Shown here: piece after piece, positions 2,816 through 45,942 of the stretch | How the letters are laid out: every line of letters starts with the position of its first letter | How positions within the stretch are numbered: position 1 is the stretch's first letter | Source of the DNA: a virus | Strand: one strand, 5' to 3' | IMG/VR virus record: IMGVR_UViG_3300035661_000107 | Location: 1-45,942 of that record | Length of the DNA stretch: 45,942 nucleotides | Position numbers and translations under genes: made by a program | Notes under the pieces: generated by a model | Told to the model about the DNA's origin: nothing | Databases searched by the model: none | The model's input: the letters and a program-made list of their open reading frames with translations, nothing else

Positions 2816-2816
2816 A

Positions 2817-3593: not shown

Positions 3594-3597
3594 ATAA

Positions 3598-4188: not shown

Positions 4189-4203
4189 TCACTTTTTAAT
4201 GGT

Positions 4204-4217: not shown

Positions 4218-4256
4218 CAATCTCTTATTTTTATTTACTTTTTAAAACTTAAAATT

Positions 4257-5784: not shown

Positions 5785-5791
5785 AAACTGA

Positions 5792-5807
5792 AGATATATA
5801 AAATAAA
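5792..5807 (+). promoter_or_regulatory. Candidate phage promoter, AGATATATAA element
   Basis: AGATATATAAAATAAA lies in the gap before the gene at 5814, with 12 bases between the 10-mer and the ATG. It matches the other copies in sequence and spacing and resembles the T4 late promoter box TATAAATA. Confidence 0.5.
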
Positions 5808-5813
5808 AACAAA

Positions 5814-7187: not shown

Positions 7188-7191
7188 AATA

Positions 7192-7938: not shown

Positions 7939-7955
7939 AATAATAATAATTAAAA

Positions 7956-8321: not shown

Positions 8322-8335
8322 AATAATTTTTTTAA

Positions 8336-16024: not shown

Positions 16025-19000
16025 ATGAGCGATTATTCACTTACTACTCTTTTAAATGATTTATTGAAACTTCAAAATAACAGTTTGGAGGCTATAAATG
16101 CATTGGCAAATGCTACAACATCACAGAGCGATACAGTTGATGTAAAAATCTTAAATTCTTCTAATGTTTTAGAAACAGTTAAAATTCCTTCATTTGGTTA
16201 TTTAAAAAATCAAATGAATGTATTAAATGCTACTGTAAAAAATTTAGCTGGTATTGGAGATGCAAATTCTAATGTTCGTTTGTCTGATGGTAGTTTTAGA
16301 AAAATACTTGTAGCTAATTTACAAAAAGAAGCATCTAATATAACAAGTCTTTCAAAACCTAATACATTTAACAAAAAAGAAAATTGGTTTTTTGAATCAT
16401 TTTTGAACCCACTTTTGTACGTTTCTTTTAATTTAACAAATCAAATTAAATTTAATACAGAAAACGTAGAAGTATCTAGGTATATATTAAATCTTGATAC
16501 TGCTTCTAAATTAAGCATTTTTAATACAACTTTTTTGAACAAAAGCGATATAAATTATAGCACATTTTTACAAATTCTAAATGATAATCGTATAACATAT
16601 TTTTTGGATAAAAATATAGTAAAAACAGCTCCAAGAACATTACAGTATTTTGGTAGTTTTACTGTTACTGATGTAAAAGATGACACCATAACAGAAATAA
16701 TAAATGGCGAATCTGTTTATAAAAAACTTTTGTCTGTTAAACTTGATAAATTAACATATTCAGATAGTTCTTCTGCTTATTTAAATACAAAACAATTAAA
16801 AATTGGAGATTCTTTAGTAGTTAATTCAGGTAATAAAAATACAAGATATGAAATACTTTCAGTAGACAATTCAACAAGAACAATTAAAGTAAGATTGATA
16901 GAAGGATTTGATGCAATATCTATAGGCAGTGATGTTCTTAGTTATTATGCAGTAGATAGTTCGGATGTTATCGTTGATGTTAATGTTGGTTTTAATGAAC
17001 GTTCAGTTATTTTTATTAAAGCAATAGACCCGGATTCTAAAATTCTTGCTACTCAATGGTCGCCTGGTGTTGGTTTTTATACAAATGACTTAACTATCAT
17101 AGATACTAATGGAAATTCTGTAAACCTTGCAACATACTATCAAAATGAAGTTGTTGATTTTGGGGCTTATCTTTATTCTTCCGTTAAGGATAAAACTGTT
17201 CCTGCTGCATTTGGTATAGTTCCTGATGCTCCTGTTATTTCATCTTCTAATTTTAAAGTTTTACAAGTTAATGAACATTTGAATTCTTCATTATCTTCTA
17301 ATATTGCTAAAAAACAATATGATAAAACTCTTGCACAATCGCAAATTGCATCTTTAGATAAAACTATAACAGATTTAAAAACTAAAATTGCTACTACAAC
17401 ATATTCAACAGATCAATTAAGAAAAACTGACGAGTCTAGTTTAAATAACTTAATAACACAAAGACACTCACAATCTGTATTATATTCATCATTGGTTGAT
17501 GAAATTAATACATTAACAAATTCGCAAAATGTTGATATAACTCCTAAATATAGAATTAGAGGATTTTTTCCATTTCCTACTCCTAAAAATTCTCCTAGGA
17601 CAGGAAACCAAGAAGTTATACAATTTTTAATTCAATATCGTTATATTGGAAAAGATGGTTCTGCAAATAAACCACAACAAATATCTTATGTTGATACAAA
17701 CGGTCAAACAAGGAGAGGAACATTTTCAAATTGGATAGAATACACAAGTCCAATAAGACTAAAAGCAATGGATGTAACTACCGGTAATTTTTATTGGACA
17801 ATAGATCAAACCGAAAACGCGGATATTGTTAACATTAACCAAGTAGATATTCCTATAAATGCTGGTGAATCTGTTGAATTTAGAATAAAATCTATATCCG
17901 AAGCCGGATGGCCGGTAAATCCATATTATTCCGATTGGTCTGATATTATTAAAATAGATTTTCCAACAGAATTAGAATCTATACAAAGTATAAGCACTAT
18001 CGCCGAACAAGCTAAAGCTGAAAAAGTTAAAATAGAATTATTGTCTGACTTTTCTAGCATGAATTTAGACACTATTGCCGGTTTATCATTTACGCAAAAT
18101 GGAAATTTTTATGCTAATGATTCTAAACATATTGCTTCAGGATTTTTAACCCCTGAAAACAATATAATTAGTTTGTTTGATAAACTAAATGAAATGGACA
18201 AACAATTACAAACATTACAGTCTCTTATTCAAAACGCAAAAGGAAATCTTGCAGTTTCAGTTATTGATGAATATGGACAAGAGTACAAGGTTGATAACAA
18301 CACAACTCTTAAACTTTATGCGGGTAATTACAAAGATCAAGTAAATTCATTGCAAATTAAAAAGGGTGCTATTGTTACTAAAACTTATTTGTTAAAATTA
18401 GCAAATGACTCAGCATCTTCTCTCGAGCTTTATTCAAGAATGTACGGTTCTAAGACATTAATGGTTGTTGGTACAGCAGGTGATGTAGATTATAATACTT
18501 TGAGAAAATATGATAATGTTCCTATTGGTATTTCAAAATCATATCCAAAAGATACGATAATAGATAATTTACCTAATCAATCTGCACAAGTAAAAGGACA
18601 ATTCTTATATGGAAGATATATGTCCGTTGATGGAACTAACGAACTTTATGTTGACCCTTCTTCATTAAGCGGAAATATAAATATAAATAGTTCAGGAGAG
18701 TTTTTGCCATCCGATGACCACGGAAGTAATGGAAATGGATTTGCTTGGAGCATATATAATGGTAATACAATACCTTCTAGTGAAATGAGTCCTTCCGGTT
18801 TTTATATTCACAAAAACCATCCAGATATACCATCTTGGGAGTCTGAAAGTACAGGAATTCCATATTCAGAAACAGTAAAAAAATATGTAAGAAATTCTGC
18901 ATTAGCTGGTGATACATCAACATCAAATTATTTTAAACAATTAGCATATCATTATAATAGCACACAGAATTCAAAAATATGTTTTTCACCTAATGATCAG

Positions 19001-19447
19001 TACTTAATAGGACCGCAAACGGTAGGAGCATATTTATTCTTAAATCCTAATTCACATGATGACTTAGTGGTGGATGGTAATGATGCATTATCTACTAAAA
19101 TTTTACAATATGGTTCGGATAAAGCTATAACAATTCCTGTTATTTTTCAATATAGAATGACAGACTATTATGGCGATGGTAATAATGGATTAGGAAACAT
19201 AGGCGGGGACATAAATTTTAACACAAGTTCTAATTTGGAATATACAAAAAGAATAGGAATAGATATTTATAACAATTTAAAAGATAATAATAGATTTTCA
19301 TTTGATATAGAAATAACTTCTAGATATACTTCTAAAACAATGTCTAATACTTTTATTCCAACAAGGTCATTTGAAAATGCAATTAGCGATTTAACAGGTG
19401 TAGTAAAAACAGTTAGTCCTAAATTAAATAAACCTGCATCTAAATAA
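16025..19447 (+). CDS. Large virion structural protein with coiled coil and Fn3-like region
   Basis: The protein has 1140 residues. Residues ~415-500 form a predicted coiled coil (SQIASLDKTITDLKTKIATT and following heptads). Residues ~510-650 contain a fibronectin III-like segment with YRIRGFFPFPTP, IQFLIQYRYIG and GESVEFRIKSISEAGWP. A second helical stretch lies near residues 715-745 (FDKLNEMDKQLQTLQSLIQ). It belongs to the giant structural proteins of large Bacteroidota-type phages and has no enzyme motif. It is preceded by an A-rich leader containing ATATAAATA. A role as a peripheral baseplate or fibre-base protein is inferred. Confidence 0.55.
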   Translation: MSDYSLTTLLNDLLKLQNNSLEAINALANATTSQSDTVDVKILNSSNVLETVKIPSFGYLKNQMNVLNATVKNLAGIGDANSNVRLSDGSFRKILVANLQKEASNITSLSKPNTFNKKENWFFESFLNPLLYVSFNLTNQIKFNTENVEVSRYILNLDTASKLSIFNTTFLNKSDINYSTFLQILNDNRITYFLDKNIVKTAPRTLQYFGSFTVTDVKDDTITEIINGESVYKKLLSVKLDKLTYSDSSSAYLNTKQLKIGDSLVVNSGNKNTRYEILSVDNSTRTIKVRLIEGFDAISIGSDVLSYYAVDSSDVIVDVNVGFNERSVIFIKAIDPDSKILATQWSPGVGFYTNDLTIIDTNGNSVNLATYYQNEVVDFGAYLYSSVKDKTVPAAFGIVPDAPVISSSNFKVLQVNEHLNSSLSSNIAKKQYDKTLAQSQIASLDKTITDLKTKIATTTYSTDQLRKTDESSLNNLITQRHSQSVLYSSLVDEINTLTNSQNVDITPKYRIRGFFPFPTPKNSPRTGNQEVIQFLIQYRYIGKDGSANKPQQISYVDTNGQTRRGTFSNWIEYTSPIRLKAMDVTTGNFYWTIDQTENADIVNINQVDIPINAGESVEFRIKSISEAGWPVNPYYSDWSDIIKIDFPTELESIQSISTIAEQAKAEKVKIELLSDFSSMNLDTIAGLSFTQNGNFYANDSKHIASGFLTPENNIISLFDKLNEMDKQLQTLQSLIQNAKGNLAVSVIDEYGQEYKVDNNTTLKLYAGNYKDQVNSLQIKKGAIVTKTYLLKLANDSASSLELYSRMYGSKTLMVVGTAGDVDYNTLRKYDNVPIGISKSYPKDTIIDNLPNQSAQVKGQFLYGRYMSVDGTNELYVDPSSLSGNININSSGEFLPSDDHGSNGNGFAWSIYNGNTIPSSEMSPSGFYIHKNHPDIPSWESESTGIPYSETVKKYVRNSALAGDTSTSNYFKQLAYHYNSTQNSKICFSPNDQYLIGPQTVGAYLFLNPNSHDDLVVDGNDALSTKILQYGSDKAITIPVIFQYRMTDYYGDGNNGLGNIGGDINFNTSSNLEYTKRIGIDIYNNLKDNNRFSFDIEITSRYTSKTMSNTFIPTRSFENAISDLTGVVKTVSPKLNKPASK

Positions 19448-19483
19448 ATTTGATTTTAAAACAAACCAAATATAAAACAAAAA

Positions 19484-22400
19484 ATGTCAATAATAACAAA
19501 GAAAAGCTCTTTTAATTTAGTCCGTACTAATCCATCATTGACAACTAATATAAAAATAGTATCCGATAATGAAAAAGTGTATCTTGAGTCAATCGATGCA
19601 GATCCACTTCTTTCAAAGTCAATGTACAAAAAATTTGAAGTAACAGGTGGCCTTTATGCAAATGATTTACATAAATTTTATTCACAAGGTGGAAATTTAC
19701 TACCAAAATCAATAGCATATAAAACGTATGAACGTGATGAGTATTATTCCATAAAAGACAGTTATAAATATCAATATGATTTTAACTATGCAATGGGAGT
19801 TGAACGAAAAAAGTCTAGACTTTACACACAAGAGCTTAGTATATTCTCTCCTTTGTGGGTAGAACCAGAATGTTTGCCTGATTATTTTCTAATATTTAGA
19901 CTTAAAGGGCCTATGTCATTAAATGGATTAAATGGTGCTTCTTATGATCAGAATAATCCAATAATTAATGGGGGTATAGACTTAATAAAAGATCCTAGTA
20001 AATTTTTTGAAAACTATATTAAAAATGCAGAAATAATTAAAACATTTGACTTGACTAACAAATCTGCTATAGGCCGTTATATTCGTAATTATACCTTGAA
20101 TTCGTTATTTCCTAAATATTCAATATATGCATCAATTAATAAAAATGATTTAACATATTGGGAAGGTATTTCGTATGACAATAGTGGATTTTGTAAAAAA
20201 TCGCAAAACATATATAAATCTTATACTTTACAAGATAAAACTATAATAGAAAAGGATAGTTTTATTACAAATGGCTTTTATGAAAATGGTGTAGTACATC
20301 CTAATATACTTAATTTAGAATTTTTATTTGATGACTTAACTGTTAAAAATTATGAATTTAATCGTTATTTTGGTTTATATGTTTCTGAAGCAGAAATTGG
20401 CAAATTTAATCTTGATTTAGAAAATACAATAAAAGTAAGTAATTTATTATTAGATCAAAAAATAGTAAATTCAAATATTATAACTAATGACGAAGGTGTT
20501 ATTATAGCAGTTGATGCTAATACTCCAGCTGATAAACTAATAAAATTCGAACCAAATGTTCCTAAATTTCCTTATGTAAAAGATACTAATGGTTTATTTT
20601 ACTCAGTTAATCAACAAACTGATTGGGATTTTGAAATAGGAAATTTTATTAGGTTAAAAAATAATTCTATTAACATAGATAATTTTAGCAATTATGGAAC
20701 TCCTATAAAATATGTAGATATATTTGAATCTACTAAAAAAGGTACTTCTTGTTTTTCTTTTAAAGTAATAGGAAAAGTTTTACCTGGTGACCAAATAAGA
20801 ATAAAATACATTGATGTTACAAATCCTTTATCTTCTAGATATACCATTACTGGTTTAAATTTACCAAATGGTACTAATTCTGGTTTAGGTTTTAGTATAA
20901 ATGGTTCGTCCGTGGATATAGCAACAGCGATTTGTAAATCTATTAACGCAATTAGCGACAATACCAACAAAACACAGCAATTTTATGCAATTAATACAGG
21001 AAACAGAGTGACTGTATTAACAAGAACGCAAAATTCATATTTAAACAATACTAATTATACATTATTTAGTCAAGCTGAAGTATTTCCATTTACAATTCCT
21101 AATGATTATGCTTCGCCTGTTTTCGTAAATAATTATTTAGATATAACAGGTAGCACAAATTATTTAACAGGAAATTTATATTCTTATCATTTTACAGGTG
21201 GTACCGATGACATTAAAGGAAAATTCACTATTAAACAAGAAGATGTTCTTGAATTTAGAGGAACTGATAAAGTTTTTGTTAAAAATTACAAAGACAATAC
21301 TTACCAAGAAATAACAGATTACTCGCCATATATAGATGAACCTGTCAAAAATGGCCGTGGTGAAATTAAAAGTTTTAACAATATAGATGTATACTATAGT
21401 TGTTATTTAGATAATTCAATATTAAGTTTTGGTGTTTCTAAAAAAATAGCATTGTACAATAGAATCAATAATACAAATGGGTATTTGTCATTATTTCCTA
21501 TAAAGGATTTTGATTTTGATTTTTACAATAAAGATTATACTAAAACAGCCGACTCTGATATTTCCAAACTTCTGAATTTTTATAAAACAAATCCTAATAG
21601 TCCTATTTATGGAACATCTGGATCAAATAAAAACGATATTTTAAATACATTATTTGGCCCGGACTGTTCATTTTTATCACAAGGTGGTTATCAAACATTG
21701 TTATCACAAGTAGATGAATTCGATAATTCAATAACAACATTGGATAATGAATATGATAGATTAAAAGAAAATTATTTAAATGAACTTTCTACAGAGTCAA
21801 GGGTAGTTCCATATATTAACAAATGGGTGTATGATAATGATGCAACAGATATAAGAGAAAACAATTATAGGTTAAACACTGACCAATCATTTGGATTTAG
21901 CAATTTTGCCCCTTCTTTCGAAGAGTATTTAAGGAATAAAAATTTCTTTACGCACGAGTGGTATTATTTACAAAAATATCCACCGTACATGACATTTGAT
22001 GAAAAAGTAAATTCATTTTCATATTTCGACGAAGACATAGACGAGGCTCTTTTAAAAGACGTCAACAATGATTATTTTTCTTCTTATTTTACTAGAAATT
22101 CTATAGGAGGCACTTCAGTAAGTAATAGTTTTAAATACTCTATTTTTGAAAATGGTAGTGATTCAACTTATGCAGAAACTATGTTTAGAGGAGTAAAATT
22201 AATAGTTAAAGACAGGTATGAGTATTCTAACATAAATTATAATATCAATTCATTAAAATTTTTAAACAATACAATTTACAATAACTATAAATTTTCTGCT
22301 GTTTTAACATATTCAGAAATTGGCACTGAATTATTATTTATTAAAAATGATAAATTTAAAACTATTACATTGTTAATAAAAGCTAAATTAGATGGACCTT

Positions 22401-24169
22401 TTTTCCAAAGTGGTTCTACTAAATTTATAGATAGAGCTCATTTGTATACTATTAAAGACATTTATAAAATAGGAACAACTTCAAATTCACTTGAATTCGA
22501 TGATAAAATTTTAACAGGACACATTAATAAAATAACATATACTCAAGTAGGAAATGGCGCGGTTGAATGGCATGTTTTTGCCGAAAAAGATTTAACAGGA
22601 CTTCTTCCTAATTTTAAAAATCAATTAGCAGTTAATGAATTAGGGTTATATAATGACATATTTATACAAGCTGTAGATAGAATTAATAGTTTTGTTAAAT
22701 ATATTAAATTTATTGGTATAAAAAATATAACTTCAAATTCATTTGATTGCACTGATATTAAATATAGCATAGATGGGACTAACCCAGAAAATTTTTTAAT
22801 AAAATTATTAGCACAAGCAAGTGATAAAATAGAATTAAACCTATTAGATAATGACTATGATAATGTAATAGTTAGTCCATATAATTCATTTCCAGTGGGA
22901 CAGCGTTTTCCTAAAATGATTAGCTCCCAAATGTCGGGTAATACTTTTGTTTTATCTAGCATGAAAAAGTTGTTTTGGCAAAATCCTATATACAAATCAG
23001 GTGGTTATAATGGATTGGAATCTACTATTGAAGAAATATCATTTGCTTCTATAGCTGATAAAATTAACAATGGAAGCCCTGATGTAAAATATATAGAAGT
23101 TGATACTAATGGAAATACTCTTTTAAATACATTTTGTATAGAATTAGTCAAACCAGAACAAGCAATAGTTTCAACATATTTACGAGCCCAAAATTTAACT
23201 AAACAATTTTCTAATTTACAAAATTATATCGGAAAATTAGGATATGAAGTTGTTCAAACAGACAGAACTACTATTAGTCCTATAAACAGGCAAAAAGGTG
23301 GATTTAATCCTAGAACAATTAATTTAATTAATTTCATAGACAGAGACCCTAACTTGTTATATCAAAATATAGAATTGTCATTAGACAAGTCGTTTGGTAT
23401 TATTAAAAATTTGTATTATAATAAAGTAAACATAGAAAATGCTAATAATATTTTAAAAATTAAAGATGACAACACTTCATATCCATTGATAGGTGAAATT
23501 GCTATTGACAAAAAAGATTATTTTATATTCAATTCATCATTTGATCCTGCTTTTTATGTTAAAAATTTAACCCCCGTCTCTTATTCATTTGTTTCAGGAC
23601 AAGCTGAAATGAAAGAATTTAAAACATTTTTTGGTTCTAAAATTCTTTCAATTCCTAGTAATATCAAAATGCAATTATTTGACGGTTATATAGAGCTAAC
23701 AGATTTAGGTAAATTATCAAATATAAGTAATGTAGAACAAAAAATAGTTAAGTCTATAGATGTTGTCAAATCAAATAAAATACTAACATTAAATGTTTTT
23801 ACTGATGAACTTTTAAAAAAGTATTTTATTAATGATGGTATAATAAATCAATTTCAAATATATTTAGACCCTAGTTATTCTAATAGCAAAAATATAGTTG
23901 AAATGACAAATAATTATATAAAAGAGAACATACTCGACAAATATATAATAAAAGCTATAAATTTTTGGGAGAAATTTATACCTAAAGGAGTTTCCTATAA
24001 CATCATAGAACTTAATATGACGGATAGTGAAAAAATACTTAATGGATATGTTGAAAGTAAAAGTTTTTCAGTTCAATATACATCTGATTTAAATTTTGAT
24101 TTAAAATATAATATACCTTTAGATAAAAATTATTCAATTGCCTTTACAATAGAATTAGAAAAAAAATAA
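19484..24169 (+). CDS. Giant virion structural protein (1561 residues)
   Basis: This is the largest gene of the window. The N-terminus (KSSFNLVRTNPSLTTNIKIV, then VYLESIDADPLLSKSMYKKF) and the aromatic-rich stretch around residues 80-130 (YELSIFSPLWVEPECLPDYF type) look like a conserved structural family, but I cannot name a T4 equivalent. Composition is Asn/Lys/Ile-rich with many aromatic residues, and no catalytic motif, signal peptide or coiled coil is obvious. It is followed six bases later by the collagen-like fibre gene. A baseplate rim or long-fibre attachment role is a guess from context. Confidence 0.55.
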   Translation: MSIITKKSSFNLVRTNPSLTTNIKIVSDNEKVYLESIDADPLLSKSMYKKFEVTGGLYANDLHKFYSQGGNLLPKSIAYKTYERDEYYSIKDSYKYQYDFNYAMGVERKKSRLYTQELSIFSPLWVEPECLPDYFLIFRLKGPMSLNGLNGASYDQNNPIINGGIDLIKDPSKFFENYIKNAEIIKTFDLTNKSAIGRYIRNYTLNSLFPKYSIYASINKNDLTYWEGISYDNSGFCKKSQNIYKSYTLQDKTIIEKDSFITNGFYENGVVHPNILNLEFLFDDLTVKNYEFNRYFGLYVSEAEIGKFNLDLENTIKVSNLLLDQKIVNSNIITNDEGVIIAVDANTPADKLIKFEPNVPKFPYVKDTNGLFYSVNQQTDWDFEIGNFIRLKNNSINIDNFSNYGTPIKYVDIFESTKKGTSCFSFKVIGKVLPGDQIRIKYIDVTNPLSSRYTITGLNLPNGTNSGLGFSINGSSVDIATAICKSINAISDNTNKTQQFYAINTGNRVTVLTRTQNSYLNNTNYTLFSQAEVFPFTIPNDYASPVFVNNYLDITGSTNYLTGNLYSYHFTGGTDDIKGKFTIKQEDVLEFRGTDKVFVKNYKDNTYQEITDYSPYIDEPVKNGRGEIKSFNNIDVYYSCYLDNSILSFGVSKKIALYNRINNTNGYLSLFPIKDFDFDFYNKDYTKTADSDISKLLNFYKTNPNSPIYGTSGSNKNDILNTLFGPDCSFLSQGGYQTLLSQVDEFDNSITTLDNEYDRLKENYLNELSTESRVVPYINKWVYDNDATDIRENNYRLNTDQSFGFSNFAPSFEEYLRNKNFFTHEWYYLQKYPPYMTFDEKVNSFSYFDEDIDEALLKDVNNDYFSSYFTRNSIGGTSVSNSFKYSIFENGSDSTYAETMFRGVKLIVKDRYEYSNINYNINSLKFLNNTIYNNYKFSAVLTYSEIGTELLFIKNDKFKTITLLIKAKLDGPFFQSGSTKFIDRAHLYTIKDIYKIGTTSNSLEFDDKILTGHINKITYTQVGNGAVEWHVFAEKDLTGLLPNFKNQLAVNELGLYNDIFIQAVDRINSFVKYIKFIGIKNITSNSFDCTDIKYSIDGTNPENFLIKLLAQASDKIELNLLDNDYDNVIVSPYNSFPVGQRFPKMISSQMSGNTFVLSSMKKLFWQNPIYKSGGYNGLESTIEEISFASIADKINNGSPDVKYIEVDTNGNTLLNTFCIELVKPEQAIVSTYLRAQNLTKQFSNLQNYIGKLGYEVVQTDRTTISPINRQKGGFNPRTINLINFIDRDPNLLYQNIELSLDKSFGIIKNLYYNKVNIENANNILKIKDDNTSYPLIGEIAIDKKDYFIFNSSFDPAFYVKNLTPVSYSFVSGQAEMKEFKTFFGSKILSIPSNIKMQLFDGYIELTDLGKLSNISNVEQKIVKSIDVVKSNKILTLNVFTDELLKKYFINDGIINQFQIYLDPSYSNSKNIVEMTNNYIKENILDKYIIKAINFWEKFIPKGVSYNIIELNMTDSEKILNGYVESKSFSVQYTSDLNFDLKYNIPLDKNYSIAFTIELEKK

Positions 24170-26519: not shown

Positions 26520-29009
26520 ATGTCACAATCATCAAAATTTTATCAATTAACTTCTTCAATTTTGTTGGAGTATATATATGCAGATCAGTACAATCTTTCA
26601 ACACAAAGAATTTCTACTGATGATGCTCCTATTTATTTGTATAATGATAATTTGAATTCAAACGTAGTTTATAATTTACGAGGTACAGGTTCTAATCAAG
26701 ACAGAACTTACTTACGTGATGTTAACAATAAAATAAAAAGACTTCGTAATGTTTTTCCAGCAGGAAATTTATTAACATTGGTTAATCAATATCCTGTTTA
26801 TGAAACAATTAGACTTCATTTAGTTCAAGGATTTAATTTTGAAGGATATAAAGGATTTGATTTAAATGCTAAAATTTTAACTAACAAAGGAACGGAAATT
26901 AATCTTTTGAAATTTGTTTGCTATTCCACTGATTCATATGAAACTATGAATCCATCTCCATTTATGATGGGTGGTAAATATTATGCTTCTTATATTGATT
27001 TAAAAATACTTTCTACTTATAATTTAGCGTATGACTATTACAGTGGTAACGATACTTCTGTTGTTGATGCAATATCACAAAATAATGGAATTAAAAAAGA
27101 CCAATTTATTCAATTTAATTTCAATTGGATAAGTGCAAAAGAAAACTTTGCAGGAGTAGACTATGCGTACGAGGCAGAGTCTATTAATTTTGATATAATA
27201 GCACAAGATCAATATGAACAAATAACTGCAACTATTCTAGAGTCACCAGATTTTGATTACATAGAATATTATGCGTCATATAAAGGTTCAATTATTGATT
27301 CTTTTATAAATGATATGAATTCTAATGGATATGACTATATTGTTTTACACAGTTTAATTGTTTCAGAATTTATTAATACATTTGGTTCTGAACCTTACTG
27401 GTTAGTAACAGATAATTTAGAAATATCCCAAACTGAAAATTTTGGTGATGCAAATGTATTTAGGCCTATTATTAAAAATGCCAATGCAATGGCATATCGT
27501 ATCGACTATATTGCTAGGCTTTATAATAGAAATGATAATACTCAAATTTGGAAACGTTCTTCTTTAATATCTTATGATGTTACTAAATATGGAAGGAAGT
27601 TAGACTCTATAAAATTATTAGATAATCCTATACAAAATATAATTTATAACAAAAAAGTAGTTAAAGAAGTAACTATAAATAGAATAAGTGATAATATAGG
27701 AGTTAATACACAATTTGTTACAGTTCCTGTTTCAAATAATAATATAGTAGTTAATGCTAAAAATGTTGATACTCTCTCATCTAATTTGTTAAATGGTAAT
27801 AGCTTATTTGATATTAACAATACTTATGCAGATGGATTAGCTAAAATAATAATAACCAACGTTGCTTCTTATTTAAAATTTACTATTTATGAATATGTTA
27901 ATGGTAATTTACAAGGTTCCGATGTTTCAGCACTTGGTGATGCATATATTTCATTTTTGACTGATAAAGGAACTTATTTTGATATAATAGAATTTAAAGA
28001 TCCTACGATAAATAAATCAAAAGGAGAACTTTTATTTAGAATTTCAGAAATCGATTCAAACAAAGTACTAACATTCGCTAATAGACAATTTAGTATTTAT
28101 TTCAAAAATACAAAAAAAGAAAAAACTGTTAAGTGTCATGGTACATACTATAGTCAAAAGGAATGGACTTCTTTGTTAGAGTCAGAAACTTCAGAAAAAT
28201 TAAAAAACAGTTTAGTACACGCTAATTCTGTTATAACAGATTTAACTACCCAAATAAACCAATTAAAAATAGATTTGGCTAACACTATAATTGAAAAAAA
28301 TAAAATACTTAGCGATTATAATAATGAAAATATAGCAGATGGAACATTTATTGCACAATTGCAAAATCAAATTAAGTCAAATAGCACAACAATAAGCGAT
28401 CAAGCAGCAAAAATAGCAGAATTAACTAAAAAATTATCGGATATTTCTAATTCCGCAAATGATATAATAATATCACCAACAAAACAAGTTATTCCTGTAA
28501 CAAATCAAACAATTCCAACTGTCATAACAGTAAATACTAATACAAAATCTGGGGGTGGAGGATGTCCTACTCCAGATATGTTAATTCAAACAGACTCTAA
28601 TGAATGGGTTCTTGCTGAATACTTAAGAGTTGGAGATAAAGTTTTAACTATACATGAAATAACAGAAAAACTAGATTTTTACGAAGTTTCTTATGTAAAT
28701 AAATTAATTCAACCTATATTACAATTTACAATAGACGATAAAATTATTAAAGTATCTGAATCTCATAAATTTTTAACACCTAAAGGATTTATAGAAGCAA
28801 TTGATTTAAATCCTGGTGATGAAATTCGTACGTTAAATGGCACTTCTAAAATTAAGTCTATAGATGCTATCGAAGATGGTGAAGTTATGAAAATAGAAAT
28901 AAAGGATGCCCACACTTATATAGTAGATGGATTTATTTCGCACAATAAACAATTAGCAGATACTATAAACGAAGGTTCTTCTATAAGAAATACTAAAATG
29001 ATAGAATAA
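26520..29009 (+). CDS. Structural protein with coiled coil and C-terminal Hint (intein-like) domain
   Basis: The protein has 829 residues. The first ~530 are a beta-rich structural region; residues ~560-650 form a coiled coil (LTTQINQLKIDLANTIIEK and later heptads). A Gly-rich linker (SGGGG) then leads into a Hint domain from Cys682 (CPTPDMLIQT) to His808-Asn809, with an SESH block-B histidine and the block AHTYIVDGFISHN. The next residue is Lys810, not Cys/Ser/Thr, and only 20 residues follow. Normal splicing is therefore unlikely, and the domain resembles bacterial intein-like (BIL) modules that cleave or rearrange. The gene sits after the fibre gene, so the product is probably a virion fibre or baseplate protein that is processed. 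Confidence 0.75.
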   Translation: MSQSSKFYQLTSSILLEYIYADQYNLSTQRISTDDAPIYLYNDNLNSNVVYNLRGTGSNQDRTYLRDVNNKIKRLRNVFPAGNLLTLVNQYPVYETIRLHLVQGFNFEGYKGFDLNAKILTNKGTEINLLKFVCYSTDSYETMNPSPFMMGGKYYASYIDLKILSTYNLAYDYYSGNDTSVVDAISQNNGIKKDQFIQFNFNWISAKENFAGVDYAYEAESINFDIIAQDQYEQITATILESPDFDYIEYYASYKGSIIDSFINDMNSNGYDYIVLHSLIVSEFINTFGSEPYWLVTDNLEISQTENFGDANVFRPIIKNANAMAYRIDYIARLYNRNDNTQIWKRSSLISYDVTKYGRKLDSIKLLDNPIQNIIYNKKVVKEVTINRISDNIGVNTQFVTVPVSNNNIVVNAKNVDTLSSNLLNGNSLFDINNTYADGLAKIIITNVASYLKFTIYEYVNGNLQGSDVSALGDAYISFLTDKGTYFDIIEFKDPTINKSKGELLFRISEIDSNKVLTFANRQFSIYFKNTKKEKTVKCHGTYYSQKEWTSLLESETSEKLKNSLVHANSVITDLTTQINQLKIDLANTIIEKNKILSDYNNENIADGTFIAQLQNQIKSNSTTISDQAAKIAELTKKLSDISNSANDIIISPTKQVIPVTNQTIPTVITVNTNTKSGGGGCPTPDMLIQTDSNEWVLAEYLRVGDKVLTIHEITEKLDFYEVSYVNKLIQPILQFTIDDKIIKVSESHKFLTPKGFIEAIDLNPGDEIRTLNGTSKIKSIDAIEDGEVMKIEIKDAHTYIVDGFISHNKQLADTINEGSSIRNTKMIE
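28563..28946 (+). other. Hint/BIL-like domain within structural gene
   Basis: This segment encodes residues 682-809: nucleophile Cys first, Ser-Glu-Ser-His in the block-B position, and a terminal Ser-His-Asn followed by Lys. These are the self-cleavage residues of the intein fold without the downstream nucleophile. Confidence 0.8.
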
Positions 29010-29010
29010 T

Positions 29011-29577
29011 ATGATACTAGGAAACAGAAATGATCTTTTTAAAATAGAATTGCCTAAAATATTCCTACCTAAGGAAATTAAAGACAAATATTATGATTAT
29101 GTTTTTAGAATGCCAGCAAACATTAGAGATGTTTCAGATCTTATTAATTATTCTATTCAAAGCGTAACAATTCCTAATTTTAACTATGAACCTATAGAAC
29201 AAGTTCAACAAGGAGATGGTGTAAGAAAACATGGTACTACCAAACTTTACAGACAGTCGTTAAACAAAGAAATGTTATTAGATAGGAAGTTTACAATCAC
29301 ATTTCAATTGTTAGATGGAAATATTAATTATTGGATTTTATTAGATACTTTTTTTGCATATTATTCTTTTGAAGAATCGCTAAAATACATACCAGATATT
29401 TCTATTAAGATTTATAATGCTGAAGGATTGCACATGTATAGTGTTATTTTTAAAGATTGTTTGTTTACTTCTGTCGGAGAATACACGTTATCATATTCCG
29501 AAGTAACTCCTGAATTCAAAACATTTGATACCGAATTTAGATTTAACACTATGGATGTTGATTTTGCTAAACAATAA
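29011..29577 (+). CDS. Probable tail tube-related structural protein
   Basis: The protein has 188 residues, about the size of T4 gp19 (163) and other tube-fold proteins. The segment RKFTITFQLLDGNINYWILLDTF followed by aromatic residues, then ISIKIYNAEG and a beta-rich end (EYTLSYSEVTPEF, FDTEFRF), is in keeping with the two-sheet tail tube fold. Its start is one base after the Hint-containing gene stop. It ends the tail module. I cannot tell whether it is the main tube subunit or a tube-initiator/baseplate cap. Confidence 0.4.
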   Translation: MILGNRNDLFKIELPKIFLPKEIKDKYYDYVFRMPANIRDVSDLINYSIQSVTIPNFNYEPIEQVQQGDGVRKHGTTKLYRQSLNKEMLLDRKFTITFQLLDGNINYWILLDTFFAYYSFEESLKYIPDISIKIYNAEGLHMYSVIFKDCLFTSVGEYTLSYSEVTPEFKTFDTEFRFNTMDVDFAKQ

Positions 29578-29582
29578 ACAGA

Positions 29583-29595
29583 AGATATATAAATA
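29583..29595 (+). promoter_or_regulatory. Candidate phage promoter, AGATATATAA element
   Basis: AGATATATAAATA lies directly after the tail module stop, with 15 bases between the 10-mer and the ATG of the first capsid-targeted gene. It contains a perfect TATAAATA, the T4 late promoter box. Confidence 0.6.
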
Positions 29596-29607
29596 AAAAA
29601 AATTAGA

Positions 29608-29931
29608 ATGAAAACTTTTCATGAATATCTGGTAACAGAGTCTTTTACTAAAATGAATAATGGGTTATCTCATAAAGGAGAAGCTAGTTTCGTAATAGGT
29701 TATTTAAATGACTCTAAAGGATTTGCTTTACAATTTTTACCTGACTCAGAAACAAAAGAAAAATATACAACAGATGAATTGATAAAAATAATTAAACATT
29801 CTGTTTTTGATAACCTTCCTTATTTACAAAGAGATTTTTTCAAAGATGAGCCAAATGGTGATGCAGCAGGTATTATTTTTAGATTACAGCCATTCGACTT
29901 TGTAAATTACATTAAAAAAATAACAAAGTAA
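29608..29931 (+). CDS. Putative internal head protein with capsid-targeting peptide
   Basis: This 107-residue protein begins MKTFHEYLVTES. That is very close to the T4 IPIII capsid-targeting start (MKTYQEFIAEA, from memory), which the prohead protease cuts after the Glu. Here the cut would fall between Glu11 and Ser12. The rest is a small mixed alpha/beta protein with no known motif. It is the first of four consecutive genes with this type of N-terminus and has its own candidate late promoter. The inferred role is an internal protein packaged in the head and possibly injected with DNA. Confidence 0.6.
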   Translation: MKTFHEYLVTESFTKMNNGLSHKGEASFVIGYLNDSKGFALQFLPDSETKEKYTTDELIKIIKHSVFDNLPYLQRDFFKDEPNGDAAGIIFRLQPFDFVNYIKKITK

Positions 29932-30318
29932 ATGAAAAACTTGCAGTCATACGATGACTTTTTAAATGAAGCAGTAAAAATGTCTTCTTCGTATTTTTTA
30001 AACTTGTTAAATAATTTTGACACATATACTAAAATAACAAGTATAGGTGGTTGGAATTTAAATATGAGTTTGTTAGAAAAAGATCACGAGCTTGTTTGGC
30101 AAAAAGACAATTATAGTTTGTACACTTATTTATTTAGTGATAAAAAAGAAATTGTAGAATTTAAATTAATTTCTGATGATGATCCTAAACTAAATTTAAA
30201 AAGATTAGTAGGATTTGATACACTTCCACAAAAGTACACAGAAAATTACATGCTAGATATAGCAAACTATACAAAAAATGTAGAAAAATTTATCAAAAAA
30301 TTAAATTCTATTTTATAA
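29932..30318 (+). CDS. Putative internal head protein with capsid-targeting peptide
   Basis: This 128-residue protein begins MKNLQSYDDFLNEA, almost the same as the start of the gene at 36057 (MKNLQSFDEFLNEG). The predicted prohead protease cut is after Glu13. The remainder is charged, with aromatic residues and a C-terminal helix (NYTKNVEKFIKKLNSI). No function is recognised. It starts directly after the previous stop, and its stop TAA shares an A with the next start (TAATG). Confidence 0.6.
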   Translation: MKNLQSYDDFLNEAVKMSSSYFLNLLNNFDTYTKITSIGGWNLNMSLLEKDHELVWQKDNYSLYTYLFSDKKEIVEFKLISDDDPKLNLKRLVGFDTLPQKYTENYMLDIANYTKNVEKFIKKLNSIL

Positions 30319-40725: not shown

Positions 40726-42114
40726 ATGATATTAGATATTGAACATGTTTTTGACAACGTACATATTTCTTATTTTGATAAGAATGGTAGTGTTAAAATG
40801 AAGCATTATAAGCTTAAAGACTATCCTAATTGGACAACTTGCTCAGTCCATGACAAAGAAAAATCTGACAAATTTACAAATTGGGACGGAAAACCTGTTA
40901 AAATTGTAAAAGAAAAAAGACTTAACAAATGGTCTTTATTAGAATTTGTGCACAACTTACCTAAAGAAGATAAAGAAGAAATAGAAGCTCTTTATTTTCC
41001 TAAAATACAATCTATTGATATTGAAACTGAAGTTATCGATGGATTCCCTATTCCAGAAATAGCAAAAGAACGAATAACTGCAATGGCTATTTCAACAGAA
41101 AATAATTCTACTTTAGTATTAGGTTGGAAGCCTCTTTCACAAGAACAACAAAAAATAATTTTCGACCAACATAGAGAATATTTAAAATCATTTGGCGATT
41201 GGAACTTCAAATACATTTGTTTTGATAACGAATATGATATGATAAAATTCTTTGTGTACAATTTGCTTCCTAAATTCTCTTTGGTTACAGGTTGGAATGT
41301 TGTTGAATTTGACTGGAAATACATTTTTAATAGATGTAGAATTTTAGGTATTGAAGTTTCATTAGCATCCCCAACAAGAAGTTTATCAAAAGATTCTTTT
41401 CCATTACATATAGGTCTTTTAGATTACATGTTACTATATAAACGTTGGGACAGATCAATTCAAATAAAAGAAAGCAACAAACTTGATTGGGTTTCAAATG
41501 CAGTGCTTGGAGTAACTAAACTTCATTATAATGGAACTCTTCAAGATTTATACGAATACAATTACGAAAAATATATACTATACAATGCTATTGACTCGGC
41601 TTTAGTTATTCTATTACATAGAAAATTAAAGACATTGAATAATATCCTTTCAGTGTCAGCATTGTGTAATGTTCCTATCAATAAGTCATCGTCACCAGTT
41701 GCTTTAACTGAATCGCTTTTGTGGAAAGGATTTTATGATAGAGGGAAAGTCATTGCTGATAAAAAAATGGAAGTTGAAAAAAGGGAATATGAAGGAGCTT
41801 ATGTTAAAGAACCTACCCCAGGTATGTACAGGGCTGTTGCATGTTTTGACTTTGCATCACTTTACCCCTCAATTATGCGTCAATTCAATATTTCACCAGA
41901 GTCATTTATTAAAAAAACAACATCCCAGCAAGTTCTTGAAAACTATAAAAATGATAAGAACTTTATAGTTGCTGTAACTGGTGCAATTTATGATAAAACA
42001 AAAGAATCAGTTTTAAAAGAAATTTTAGATGACCTTTATTCTAAACGAAGATTATATAAAGACAAATACTTATTGATAGAGAAGAAAATATCAGAGATTA
42101 AAAAAATAAAATAA
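40726..42114 (+). CDS. 43: DNA polymerase family B, N-terminal part only
   Basis: The 462 residues contain the exonuclease domain: Exo I at 97-102 (IDIETE), Exo II-like TGWNVVEFDWKYIFNRC (188-204), and Exo III YNAIDSALV (286-294). The polymerase motif A follows (FDFASLYPSIM, 374-384). The frame then stops in the fingers helix (LDDLYSKRRLYKDK ...), before motif B (KxxxNSxYG) and motif C (YGDTDS). T4 gp43 has about 900 residues. No frame after the stop carries the missing part; the reductase gene starts two bases later. Split gp43 genes are known in T4-related phages, so the C-terminal half is probably encoded elsewhere. No intein half is seen at the break. Confidence 0.88.
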   Translation: MILDIEHVFDNVHISYFDKNGSVKMKHYKLKDYPNWTTCSVHDKEKSDKFTNWDGKPVKIVKEKRLNKWSLLEFVHNLPKEDKEEIEALYFPKIQSIDIETEVIDGFPIPEIAKERITAMAISTENNSTLVLGWKPLSQEQQKIIFDQHREYLKSFGDWNFKYICFDNEYDMIKFFVYNLLPKFSLVTGWNVVEFDWKYIFNRCRILGIEVSLASPTRSLSKDSFPLHIGLLDYMLLYKRWDRSIQIKESNKLDWVSNAVLGVTKLHYNGTLQDLYEYNYEKYILYNAIDSALVILLHRKLKTLNNILSVSALCNVPINKSSSPVALTESLLWKGFYDRGKVIADKKMEVEKREYEGAYVKEPTPGMYRAVACFDFASLYPSIMRQFNISPESFIKKTTSQQVLENYKNDKNFIVAVTGAIYDKTKESVLKEILDDLYSKRRLYKDKYLLIEKKISEIKKIK

Positions 42115-42116
42115 GT

Positions 42117-43148
42117 ATGCAAAAAGGTAAGAAATTTTTGTCAGATTTGAAATTATATTCTGACTATTTTAAATGGAATGAATCGCTAGGGCGATATGAA
42201 AATTGGGAAGAAGCGTGTGAAAATATTATGGATTCACACTATCGAAAATATGGGTTAGGTATTAAAGAATATGCTGATTCTGCATTGGTAAGTATGAAAG
42301 ATAAAAATGTGCTTGCTTCTCAAAGAACTTTACAATATAGGGGAAATCAATTAGAACAACATAATTCAAGGTTATATAATTGTACTTCAACTTATATGGC
42401 TCGTAACAAAGTTTTTCAAGAAATTTTTTATTTGATGTTATCTGGTTGTGGGGTTGGTGTAGGACTTTTAAAACCTTTCGTCGCCAATCTTTCAAAAATA
42501 CAAAAAAGGACATTAGGTACAAAAACTTTTATCATTCCTGATACAATTGAAGGATGGGCTGATGCATTAGGTGTTTTGATGTCATCGTATTTTGTAGACA
42601 ATCAGCCTTTTCCTGAATATGCTGGATATGAAATTAAATTTGACTATTCGCTTATTCGTCAAAAAGGAGCTTATATTTCAGGTGGCTTTAAAGCACCAGG
42701 TTCTGAAGGTTTAAGAAATTCAATTAATAAAATTGAAGAACTTATTAACAATTGGATTTTAACAGAAGGTAATGCAATCAGGCCTATTTTAGCTTTTGAC
42801 ATCCTTTGCCATATTTCTAATGCAGTCTTATCGGGAGGCGTACGACGTTGTTTGCCGGAATATTATGAAGTTCAATTAGCTGATGGTTCTTGGAAACAAA
42901 TTAAAGATTGTAAAATAGGTGACATGGTACTATTCGAAGGAAAATCATATCCGATTAATAATGTATTTGACCAAGGAATTCAATCTTTAGTTAAAATTAA
43001 TACAACCGAAGGCTTTCATGTTTCTACAATAAATCATAGATGGTTGGTAAAAAATGTAACAACAAATAAAATAGAATGGAGGACTCCTACTGAAATTTTA
43101 GGAAATGAATCTAATTTTAAATTTTTAATAAAAAAAGAAAATCTATGA
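42117..43148 (+). CDS. nrdJ: Ribonucleotide reductase piece 1 fused to N-intein
   Basis: Residues 1-244 are the N-terminal part of a ribonucleotide reductase catalytic chain, most like adenosylcobalamin-dependent (class II, monomeric) enzymes. Cys89 in YNCTST is the likely first redox cysteine, followed by GCGVGVGL, IPDTIEGWADALGVLMSSYF and FDILCHISNAVLSGGVRR. At Cys245 the reductase is interrupted by a 99-residue N-terminal split intein that ends with the stop codon. The conserved RR-S junction of reductases is exactly the break point, and the Ser is supplied by the gene at 44537. Ligation by protein trans-splicing is needed for a working enzyme. It starts two bases after the truncated polymerase gene. 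Confidence 0.88.
   Translation: MQKGKKFLSDLKLYSDYFKWNESLGRYENWEEACENIMDSHYRKYGLGIKEYADSALVSMKDKNVLASQRTLQYRGNQLEQHNSRLYNCTSTYMARNKVFQEIFYLMLSGCGVGVGLLKPFVANLSKIQKRTLGTKTFIIPDTIEGWADALGVLMSSYFVDNQPFPEYAGYEIKFDYSLIRQKGAYISGGFKAPGSEGLRNSINKIEELINNWILTEGNAIRPILAFDILCHISNAVLSGGVRRCLPEYYEVQLADGSWKQIKDCKIGDMVLFEGKSYPINNVFDQGIQSLVKINTTEGFHVSTINHRWLVKNVTTNKIEWRTPTEILGNESNFKFLIKKENL
42849..43145 (+). other. Split intein 1, N-terminal half
   Basis: This segment encodes residues 245-343. It starts with the nucleophile Cys (CLPEYYEVQLADGSWKQIKD), then IGDMVL, and has the block-B TxxH motif as TINH in HVSTINHRWLV. It ends at a stop codon after ~100 residues with no block F or G, which defines a split intein N-half. 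Confidence 0.88.
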
Positions 43149-43291
43149 CAACTATTACATATTTTAGTACAGTTAAAGAAGCTTGTACATTTATTAATAA
43201 TTATAATGGTGAATTAATTTTAAAAAATTTTAAAATTTATGATTCTAACAAAAATTTAATTGCTGAATTAGTAAATAAAGCTTTAGACTAA
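43145..43291 (+). CDS. Small ORF between intein half and endonuclease gene
   Basis: A 48-residue frame begins with an ATG that overlaps the stop of the piece 1 gene (ATGA), so it can be translated by coupling. The peptide starts MTTITYFSTVKEACTFINNY and has a helical/beta pattern like a small folded protein. No motif is recognised. It could be an uncharacterised accessory to the intein/endonuclease cassette or a chance frame. Confidence 0.4.
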   Translation: MTTITYFSTVKEACTFINNYNGELILKNFKIYDSNKNLIAELVNKALD

Positions 43292-43311
43292 TGAGGTTTA
43301 AGGATGATGTT

Positions 43312-43328
43312 AGATATATAAAATAAAC
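43312..43328 (+). promoter_or_regulatory. Candidate phage promoter, AGATATATAA element
   Basis: AGATATATAAAATAAAC lies 14 bases (10-mer to ATG) before the homing endonuclease gene, so the endonuclease may be transcribed separately from the reductase pieces. Confidence 0.55.
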
Positions 43329-43335
43329 ACCATCT

Positions 43336-44547
43336 ATGAAAACTGCATTAACATCTACTAAATATAACATTTGTTTAGAAAAACCTATTAAAAATACAAA
43401 AAAAGGACCTAATACATATTATTACGTTATAAAATGTGCTAATATAGAATGTAACAATACAATTAATGTTAAGCCCTCTGTTTGGGAAAGTGTTTTGTCA
43501 AGCAATAATCCTAGAATTTTTTCATGTTCAATGAATTGTAAAAAGTCTAATTTTGTTAAAAATTTGTTAATTCAAAAGACTATAGAAACAACTGGGTTTT
43601 CAAATCCATATCAAAACCCATTAGTAAAAAATAAAATAAAACAAACAAATTTAAAAAAGTACGGTGTCGAAAATCCATTTCAATCCGACATAATAAAAAC
43701 AAAAATTAAACAAACTAATTTAGCTAAATATGGTTGTGAAAATCCTCAACAAAATAAAGATATATCAAATAAAACAAAAAATACTAGGATAGAAAAATAT
43801 TCTAATAATCTACAAGGTTGGGCTGTAAAAAGCACGATGATTAAAACTAATTTAGAAAAATTTGGAAATCCTCAGTTTTTTGGATCTTCTCAAGGAAAAA
43901 TGTCTAAACAAAATTTTATTAATTTGTATGGTGAACTAGAAGGATTATCTAAATATGAAAAGTGGAGGACTTCAAGTAAACAAAGTTTAGAAAAATTTAT
44001 AAAACTATATGGTATTAAAGATGGCAATATACGATATGAAAACTGGGTTAGAAATTCAAGACAAAACTTAGAAAATTTTATTAAACGATATGGTAAAATA
44101 GAAGGAACTGAAAAATATGAAATTTTTACAAAACTAAGATTGTCTAATTTACTAAAAAATGGTAAAAATTCTAAGCTAAATGATTTTTTTGAAAGCTTGT
44201 TATTAGAAATCATTCCACAAACAGATTATATTAGAGAATTTGCATTAACTAATAAAACAAGAGCAGGTTTTTATTTTTATGATTTTTGTTTATTTGATAA
44301 AATTTTAATAGAAGTTAATGGAGACTATTGGCATTGTAATCCTATTAAATATAATACAGGTGAATATGTTAATTATATTGGTAGAAAACATCCTGTTTTA
44401 GTAGATGATATTTGGAAAAAAGATGAGCTAAAAAAACGTAATGCAGAAAATGAAGGTTATTTATTTTTTACATTTTGGGAAAATGATATTTTAAATAATA
44501 CTGAAAAAATAAAAAACAAAATAAAACAAATTATAAATGAAAAATAA
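43336..44547 (+). CDS. Free-standing homing endonuclease, EDxHD/VSR-like
   Basis: The protein has 403 residues. A zinc-binding site is formed by Cys34, Cys39, Cys64 and Cys68. Residues ~95-160 are DNA-binding repeats around KIKQTNLKKYGVENPFQ and KIKQTNLAKYGCENPQQ. Residues ~190-270 contain three repeats of the type FIxxYGxxxGxxxYExW. The C-terminal nuclease domain has YDFCLFD, IEVNGDYWHCNP (325-336) and DDIWKKDELKKRNAENEGY, matching the EDxHD/VSR-related nucleases (I-Bth0305I type). Such enzymes were reported in fractured genes with split inteins, between the two halves. The gene lies exactly there and would spread the insertion by cutting intein-free alleles. It overlaps the start of piece 2. 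Confidence 0.85.
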   Translation: MKTALTSTKYNICLEKPIKNTKKGPNTYYYVIKCANIECNNTINVKPSVWESVLSSNNPRIFSCSMNCKKSNFVKNLLIQKTIETTGFSNPYQNPLVKNKIKQTNLKKYGVENPFQSDIIKTKIKQTNLAKYGCENPQQNKDISNKTKNTRIEKYSNNLQGWAVKSTMIKTNLEKFGNPQFFGSSQGKMSKQNFINLYGELEGLSKYEKWRTSSKQSLEKFIKLYGIKDGNIRYENWVRNSRQNLENFIKRYGKIEGTEKYEIFTKLRLSNLLKNGKNSKLNDFFESLLLEIIPQTDYIREFALTNKTRAGFYFYDFCLFDKILIEVNGDYWHCNPIKYNTGEYVNYIGRKHPVLVDDIWKKDELKKRNAENEGYLFFTFWENDILNNTEKIKNKIKQIINEK

Positions 44548-44710
44548 TAATGAATTTGATTTAGATATAGATATTAATAATTACATAGAAGCTGATATAT
44601 TATCTATTACCGATTGGCAAGAAGAACAAACTTTTGATATTGAAGTAGAAAATGTTCATTGTTTCTATGCAAGGGAACGAGTTGGAAATATAGAAGGAAT
44701 TTCTCACAAT
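44537..44710 (+). other. Split intein 1, C-terminal half
   Basis: Residues 1-58 contain block F (TFDIEVENVHCFYA) and block G (GISHN) before the Ser59 nucleophile. It restores SGGVRR-SAMN when joined to piece 1. It is longer than many known C-halves because of an acidic N-terminal ~18 residues. Confidence 0.87.
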
Positions 44711-45703
44711 TCAGCAATGAATATGATTGTTGATCCTTATGATGATGAAATGATTAATGCAAAAATTGGAAATTGGTTTAATACACACCCTCATCGTGCT
44801 CGAAGTAATAATTCGATTATTCTTTTACGTGATTTAACAACAAAAGAAAGATTTACAGAAATTGTTAAAATGAATGATGGTATGTCAGACATTGGATTTG
44901 TATTTGCTAATTCATGGTTTGATATGTTTAATCCTTGTTTTGAAATTTCTAAAATTCCAATGCTTTATCATGGTGACTTACAAAAAATTGAATATGATGA
45001 AATAGAAGACTTTGTTAAAGATCATATTGATCTTTTAGGAGTGCAAGGCTGTAACTTAACAGAAATTAATGCTGAAAAATGTACCACTAAAGAAAAGTTT
45101 TTAAAATCATGTAAAGATGCATCAATTTTAGGTACATTTCAAGCAGGTTGGACTAATTTCCCTTATTTAGGAAAAGTAACGGAGGAAATTTTTAAAAGAG
45201 AAGCTCTTTTAGGTGTATCTATAACTGGCTGGATGAACAATCCTAAATTATTTAATCCTCAATTACTTAATGAAGGTGCAGAATTAGTTAAATCAACTAA
45301 TAGAGAAGTAGCTAAACTAATTGGAATAAATCCAGCAGCAAGAACAACTTGTGTTAAACCTTCTGGCAATGCTTGCACTGCATTTGATACGAAAATTAAA
45401 ACTAATATGGGTGATATGACTTTAAATGAAATTTTTAACGTGGCATTAGTTAAAGACATAAATCCAAATGAATTAGTAGGCAAAACTTTCGCAACACCAT
45501 ACATACCAATTTCCGTTTATAATGAAAATAATGAACTAGAACCAATTACGCATATTTATGTTAACGGGTATTCCGAAGTTTATGAAATTGAATTTGAAGA
45601 TGGAAATACTTATAAATTCACGGAAAGCCATAAATTAAAAACAACAAATGGCTGGAAACGAATGGACGAATTAACAGAAGATGATGAAATAATTTCATTT
45701 TAA
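44537..45703 (+). CDS. nrdJ: Ribonucleotide reductase piece 2 with intein halves at both ends
   Basis: Residues 1-58 are the C-half of split intein 1, ending GISHN before Ser59. Residues 59-279 are the reductase middle part. It contains FNPCFEISK with Asn132, Cys134 and Glu136 (the NxCxE active site with the thiyl-radical cysteine) and VQGCNLTEIN, whose Cys172 is probably the second redox cysteine. It ends TTCVKPSGNA. From Cys280 to the stop (109 residues) is the N-half of a second split intein. The ends must be spliced to piece 1 and piece 3. The start overlaps the endonuclease gene by 11 bases. This layout makes the protein inactive alone. Confidence 0.88.
   Translation: MKNNNEFDLDIDINNYIEADILSITDWQEEQTFDIEVENVHCFYARERVGNIEGISHNSAMNMIVDPYDDEMINAKIGNWFNTHPHRARSNNSIILLRDLTTKERFTEIVKMNDGMSDIGFVFANSWFDMFNPCFEISKIPMLYHGDLQKIEYDEIEDFVKDHIDLLGVQGCNLTEINAEKCTTKEKFLKSCKDASILGTFQAGWTNFPYLGKVTEEIFKREALLGVSITGWMNNPKLFNPQLLNEGAELVKSTNREVAKLIGINPAARTTCVKPSGNACTAFDTKIKTNMGDMTLNEIFNVALVKDINPNELVGKTFATPYIPISVYNENNELEPITHIYVNGYSEVYEIEFEDGNTYKFTESHKLKTTNGWKRMDELTEDDEIISF
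45374..45700 (+). other. Split intein 2, N-terminal half
   Basis: Residues 280-388 start with Cys (CTAFDTKIKTNMGDMTLNEI), carry TESH in the block-B position (YKFTESHKLKT) and end MDELTEDDEIISF at a stop codon. The upstream flank is the conserved reductase loop PSGNA. Confidence 0.87.
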
Positions 45704-45767
45704 TATGATTAAACGAACTTAAATTAAAGTACAAAAACTATTTAAAAAAGGAAAATAAAAATACAAA

Positions 45768-45875
45768 ATGAAAATAAAAAAAATAGTTAAATCACAAGAA
45801 GTTATTATGACTGGTGATTTAGAAGTAGGTAACTCACATTCATATCAATTATCAAATGGCGTAGTTTCACACAAT
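45768..45875 (+). other. Split intein 2, C-terminal half
   Basis: Residues 1-36, ending Ser-His-Asn before Ser37, form a short C-half of the size reported for fast split inteins. It pairs with the N-half at 45374-45700 by gene order. Confidence 0.86.
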
Positions 45876-45942
45876 TCGGTAATTCTTGGTACATCATCTG
45901 GAATTCACGCAGAACATGCAACAAGATATTTTCGTATTATGC
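45768..45942 (+). CDS. nrdJ: Ribonucleotide reductase piece 3 with C-intein (3' end outside window)
   Basis: The gene starts 64 bases after the piece 2 stop with an A-rich leader. The first 36 residues are a C-terminal split intein half (GNSHSYQLSNGVVSHN). Ser37 begins the reductase sequence SVILGTSSGIHAEHATRYFR, which continues the PSGNA loop of piece 2 in the pattern KPSG-x-x(4-6)-G-x-SxGxH of class II reductases. The frame is open at the window edge, so the gene continues. No endonuclease is present in the 64-base gap. Confidence 0.88.
   Translation, partial: MKIKKIVKSQEVIMTGDLEVGNSHSYQLSNGVVSHNSVILGTSSGIHAEHATRYFRIM

Follow-up and report, generated by a model that had tools for sequence, protein, structure and literature searches.

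The closest described counterparts of the locus analyzed here are the fractured genes of Dassa et al. (2009), which reportedly combine split inteins with free-standing endonucleases, the latter being of the Vsr-related (EDxHD) type at about half of the loci. PMC3653736 credits the same study with seven nrdA and two nrdJ genes interrupted by inteins in ocean metagenomes. In Aeromonas phage Aeh1, the broken NrdA polypeptides were reported to associate non-covalently into an active enzyme (PMC3653736). Two inteins are known in one phage nrdA (PMC3322345), and tandem trans-splicing of three segments has been engineered (PMC12707363, PMC7090010). Here we describe a viral locus in which one class II ribonucleotide reductase (RNR) is encoded in three genes and is very probably assembled via two split inteins by two trans-splicing reactions. 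The genes are co-directional on the + strand at the right end of the linear virus contig IMGVR_UViG_3300035661_000107, which is analyzed over its entire length of 45,942 bp (the whole IMG/VR record) and is hereafter called the window.

Three reductase genes and their joints

Piece 1 (42117-43148, + strand, as are all features below) encodes extein E1 followed by the N-intein IN1. E1 (42117..42848, 244 amino acids) is the N-terminal part of the class II RNR, carries Cys89 in the motif YNC, and ends in AVLSGGVRR; IN1 (42849..43145, 99 amino acids) starts with CLPEYYEV and is closed by the stop codon at 43146-43148. Piece 2 (44537-45703) consists of the C-intein IC1 (44537..44710, 58 amino acids, ending in GISHN), extein E2 (44711..45373, 221 amino acids), and the N-intein IN2 (45374..45700, 109 amino acids, starting with CTAFDTK), with the stop codon at 45701-45703. 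E2 extends from SAMNMIV to KPSGNA and contains the motifs NPCFEIS, with Cys134 and Glu136, and GCNLTEI, with Cys172. Piece 3, running from 45768 to the contig end, by which it is cut off, encodes the C-intein IC2 (45768..45875, 36 amino acids, ending in VVSHN) and the first 22 amino acids of E3 (45876..45942; SVILGTSSG..., SVILGTSSGIHAEH), where the C-terminal part of the RNR begins. The reading frames differ between the pieces, and therefore simple stop read-through would not join them. An initial annotation of this DNA, made from the sequence alone, had described a reductase in three genes with two split inteins, and all the elements it described are present.

Related loci, designated below by L numbers, were fetched from IMG/VR using pieces 1 and 2, and E1, E2, and E3 were compared with them by tblastn. 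In almost all of the fetched loci the three exteins follow one another without a single base between them; about 100 viral loci have this form, a match far beyond chance, with E1 and E2 identities of approximately 45-85%. For instance, in L002 they occupy positions 7290-8021, 8022-8684, and 8685-8750 (84.8, 81.9, and 81.8% identity, respectively), and E1 is 85% identical to the intact L002/L082; in total, 64 unique intact proteins were collected. This contiguity fixes the insertion points to the residue, at SGGVRR^S (site A) and PSGNA^S (site B), and on this comparison both joints are exact. The alignment of the joined sequence with intact relatives, suggested in the initial annotation as a check, thus proves both joints.

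The enzyme is assigned to the class II (NrdJ/RTPR-type, vitamin-B12/adenosylcobalamin-type) reductases. Piece 1 matches phrog_367 (ribonucleotide reductase, E 4e-32) and the RTPR structure 1l1l, and the annotated phage relatives are named RTPR or NrdJ. Being a fragment, piece 1 stays below the full-length curated cut-off of TIGR02505 (RTPR, E 1e-18) and below the curated cut-off of PF21995 (B12-RNR insertion domain, E 6e-5). The active-site residues Cys89, Cys134, Glu136, and Cys172 are all present, and the three that lie in piece 2 are invariant across 18 sequences. The intact sister L002/L082 has a C-terminal CSGTSC. Since the essential cysteines sit on different pieces, Cys89 on piece 1 and Cys134 and Cys172 on piece 2 (numbered correctly in the initial annotation), no single piece should be able to work alone, as had also been claimed.

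We regard as very improbable the explanation that this is a decaying, non-functional reductase that gathered mobile elements, as was proposed for the nrdA of a Campylobacter phage (PMC3653736). The window pieces contain no frameshifts or internal stops. The rates of nonsynonymous (dN) and synonymous (dS) substitution between the window exteins and the intact L002 are 0.13 and 0.94-1.64, respectively (dN/dS approximately 0.08-0.14), and the differences at the first, second, and third codon positions number 93, 36, and 214. Measured against four outgroups, lineage-unique changes are no more frequent in the window (19-24) than in L002 (26-28), so that no rate excess is seen, and 217 of the 224 otherwise invariant positions are kept. 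These data support purifying selection on the exteins and an enzyme that is still under selection.

Split inteins and the contents of the gaps

Both inteins possess Cys1, the block B motif TxxH (STINH in IN1, FTESH in IN2), the terminal His-Asn, and Ser+1, and are assigned to naturally split class 1 inteins. The split position (99/58 and 109/36 amino acids) is the usual place of endonuclease domains. Site-A split homologs of intein 1 were found in L112, L116, and L119/L335; IN1 is 48-51% identical to the N-inteins of L112 and L116, and IC1 is 35-47% identical to the C-inteins of L116 and L112. Intein 2 has site-B split homologs in L120, L103, L123, L124, L125, L129, L131, L229, L231, L233, and L234, with IN2 50-61% identical to the N-inteins of five other contigs and IC2 53-64% identical to its relatives. 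The joined intein 2 passes TIGR01445, and IC2 scores above the TIGR01443 cut-off; the match to Pfam PF14890 (E 8.6e-7) is nevertheless below its cut-off. Intein 2 resembles the DnaB, DnaE, and NrdJ-1 inteins, the last of them distantly (E 0.0013).

Genes in pieces need not imply splicing: the three polypeptides could associate non-covalently and retain the intein parts as inert tails, since a phage RNR broken by insertion of an endonuclease keeps its function without a self-splicing element (PMC3653736). However, both inteins keep the residues listed above, and their halves are conserved with their same-site counterparts; moreover, each of the breaks interrupts a conserved motif of the active site, and bulky tails at such places should obstruct the enzyme. 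We therefore consider inert tails improbable, and favor two trans-splicing reactions, in which IN1 would pair with IC1 and IN2 with IC2, both inteins would be released, and E1, E2, and E3 would be joined into one reductase.

With IC1 at its N-terminus and IN2 at its C-terminus, piece 2 has the layout used to cyclize peptides with split inteins, and mispairing of its own halves would therefore circularize it. Such self-pairing looks disfavored, because the similarity between the two inteins is low (approximately 29% for IN1 and IN2, in a poor alignment, and approximately 40% over 35 residues for IC1 and IC2) and because IC1 and IN2 each have a net charge of -11. The acidic charge recurs in the relatives (-11 and -13 in site-A C-inteins, -8 to -14 in site-B N-inteins) and may, as a hypothesis, be what prevents piece 2 from pairing with itself. 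A structure model of piece 2 (mean predicted local distance difference test score, pLDDT, of 65) gave no meaningful matches and was discarded.

Gap A contains a free-standing homing endonuclease gene (43336..44547, 403 amino acids), absent from the initial annotation, the last 11 nt of which also belong to piece 2. The product has DUF7487 repeats and a C-terminal EDxHD/Vsr-like nuclease domain (EVNGDYWH). In a fold search against 350,542 PDB chains, the model of this domain (159 amino acids, pLDDT 90) ranked 3r3p (I-Bth0305I) first, with a probability of 1.00, a TM-score of 0.70 by target length, and E 0.016; Vsr (1vsr/1cw0) took ranks 2-3. The motif E..GD.WH.NP is invariant in 28 sequences, and a phmmer search with the whole endonuclease found no match among PDB sequences. 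We predict an endonuclease of the EDxHD type. Members of its family are found in replication genes, DNA polymerase among them, where they lie between the two halves of a split intein. At site A of other reductases, L116 contains a related endonuclease (35% identity), L335 one of the same family, and L112 a C-terminal remnant alone. Upstream of the endonuclease gene, a small open reading frame (43145..43291, 48 amino acids, MTTITYFST...) overlaps the IN1 stop (ATGA) and is possibly spurious, and an RNA stem-loop lies directly in front of the start codon (43302..43335); it is weak (-9.3 kcal/mol for the whole stretch, z -1.8), and a role in expression control is possible. T4-type late promoters (TATAAATA) were dropped as a candidate for endonuclease control, the motif not being over-represented in the window against a mononucleotide expectation.

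Gap B is occupied in most relatives by a gene for a GIY-YIG (SegE-like) endonuclease, whereas the window has 64 nt without an endonuclease (45704..45767). In L234 (IMGVR_UViG_3300048014_000057, 6330-6520), site B is likewise split without an endonuclease: the gap is about 24 nt, and the halves continue in one reading frame past a single stop codon, constituting a minimal split. Since most site-B relatives carry GIY-YIG genes and L234 is split without one, the gap-B endonuclease was probably lost from the window lineage, leaving a fixed split. A GIY-YIG remnant in gap B was rejected as suggestive only and statistically weak, because dinucleotide shuffles reached the alignment to endonuclease 3' ends in 1.5% (L103), 3% (L229), 6% (L123), and 18% (L233) of cases. 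In L229, L231, L233, L125, and L120, the RNA between the site-B N-intein stop and the endonuclease start forms strong predicted hairpins, with energies of -19 to -27 kcal/mol and, for those tested, z-scores of -4.4 to -7.6; some of their arms resemble flanking extein codons (GTTAAACC...). Control of endonuclease expression by these hairpins is possible.

Most likely, contiguous inteins invaded first and were then split around free-standing homing endonuclease genes, with the endonuclease retained at site A and probably lost at site B. The order of splicing, the specificity of the two pairs, homing, and the loss of the second endonuclease are what we infer for this locus.

Related loci and the phage genome

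A second NrdJ in three pieces was found in L125 (IMGVR_UViG_3300039159_000503, 5,045 bp, positions 1-4014), with breaks at NP^C, that is, at an active-site cysteine, and at PSGNA^S. The order is ...NP, N-intein, endonuclease, C-intein, CVEIG...PSGNA, N-intein, GIY-YIG endonuclease, C-intein, SVILG..., the first piece being cut by the contig start. Nuclease genes are thus present in both gaps, the first weakly matching Phage_endo_I and the second of the GIY-YIG family. Two splits in one NrdJ were seen only in the window and L125 among the loci found. Intermediate states are represented by L103, L124, L129, and L131, with a contiguous intein at NP^C and a split intein at site B. An alignment scan of site A added almost nothing to the pattern scan, and a scan of genome contigs gave no convincing new split NrdJ. 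Taken together, the NrdJ loci (intact; with contiguous inteins; with one or two splits; with a full, reduced, or no endonuclease) trace a route from inteins to permanently split genes within one gene family. More tentatively, and with somewhat less than even confidence, we suggest that this is natural tandem trans-splicing of three segments in which the split inteins had to become orthogonal, and that double fractures arose at least twice, at sites A and B in the window and at NP^C and site B in L125.

Other mosaic nrdJ genes were also observed. In L231 (IMGVR_UViG_3300007538_000175, 2410-7512), one NrdJ has four inteins: three are contiguous, inserted at YN^C, at LLC, and at NP^C, and the fourth, at PSGNA^S, is split, its halves flanking a GIY-YIG gene. 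The nrdJ of L233 (IMGVR_UViG_3300005264_000005, 3023-7721) has both a contiguous and a split intein, and in addition an insertion with an HNH gene that separates CNL from SEI and resembles a group I intron. The nrdJ of Pseudaeromonas phage KLEP7 (L330, OM654377.1, 176-2610) is broken at NPC by a short non-coding insertion, probably also a group I intron, and is annotated as two reductase genes.

The window (27.6% GC) contains T4-type genes, namely a gp32-like single-stranded DNA-binding protein, primase, a gp41-type helicase, and baseplate genes, and belongs to a large, T4-like phage. By polymerase (46% identity) and helicase (49%), the nearest record is the huge phage LR756500 (462 kb). Given the size of this relative, the window is probably a fragment of a much larger genome, perhaps one tenth of it.

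An artefact of assembly or binning that joined unrelated fragments could be envisaged, as the contig was assembled from metagenomic data and breaks off within piece 3. Yet the same site-specific splits occur in many independent contigs, including the doubly split L125, and the gene order dUTPase-gp43A-RNR is common to the window and LR756500, with gp43A-RNR also in L123; an artefact is thus extremely unlikely.

Immediately upstream of piece 1, a family B DNA polymerase gene (40726-42114, 462 amino acids) stops soon after motif A and has no intein. Motifs B and C, the palm motifs of the gp43 C-terminal half, were not found in the window; the polymerase is of the gp43A-type split form, and this layout is repeated in L123 and LR756500. 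In the latter (L332, LR756500.1, an unannotated record; 18368-22542 and 26706-30118), the region syntenic with the window has, at the corresponding place, a class II reductase that differs from the one described here and is broken a single time, by a split intein accompanied by an endonuclease gene; gp43B in this region is fractured at the DTD-S motif.

Several points weigh against assembly of one reductase by double trans-splicing. Splicing at both inteins is deduced from conserved sequence features. Intein 1 (IN1/IC1) matches no curated intein model and is only weakly similar to gp41-1 (PDB 6qaz, E 0.0034), its nearest solved sequence relative. Piece 3 is incomplete, and the C-terminal redox cysteines lie past the contig end. 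Much of the divergence behind the dN/dS values may predate the fracture. Finally, no second reductase copy was found within the 45.9 kb of the window, but as the window is a genome fragment, absence of an intact reductase from the genome cannot be claimed, and another one could exist beyond the window.

Comparison with known systems

If two trans-splicing reactions do assemble this reductase, the locus provides a natural precedent for the engineers' protein built from three chains via two non-cross-reacting split inteins, and new split-intein pairs that are already matched for joint use. In engineered tandem trans-splicing, two orthogonal split inteins are used and the middle segment carries a C-intein and an N-intein, as does piece 2; the arrangement in the window is natural. 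The literature searched, which did not include Dassa 2009, yielded no account of a gene that is fractured naturally by a pair of split inteins. The phage nrdA with two inteins (PMC3322345) is a class I gene reported as a single, interrupted gene, and three genes with two split inteins are not described there. The Aeh1 genes nrdA-a and nrdA-b resemble the window in that a phage RNR lies in separate genes owing to a homing endonuclease; unlike the window, they encode a class I enzyme in two pieces, without an intein or splicing.

Among split inteins, NrdJ-1 (marine metagenome, PDB 8ubs) shares with the window the class II RNR host, the canonical split position, and Cys1. Its insertion site is presumably the NPC motif, and not site A or B of the window. 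For NrdJ-1 only one break is known, whereas the reductase gene of the window is broken twice, intein 2 being the distantly similar one. The intein gp41-1 is naturally split and cyanophage-like and weakly resembles intein 1, but has a different host gene and site.

The closest likeness is to the fractured genes of the Dassa type. In both, an enzyme of phage replication or nucleotide metabolism is broken by a split intein, in the window at both sites, and a free-standing homing endonuclease of the EDxHD type lies between the halves, in the window in gap A. The window differs in having two fractures and three pieces, and in the lack of an endonuclease in gap B. Single split-intein fractures were already known, as the initial annotation held, from the earlier ocean-metagenome cases related in PMC3653736; judged by its gene structure, the reductase locus of the window would work on the same principle as these cases, applied two times over in a single gene.

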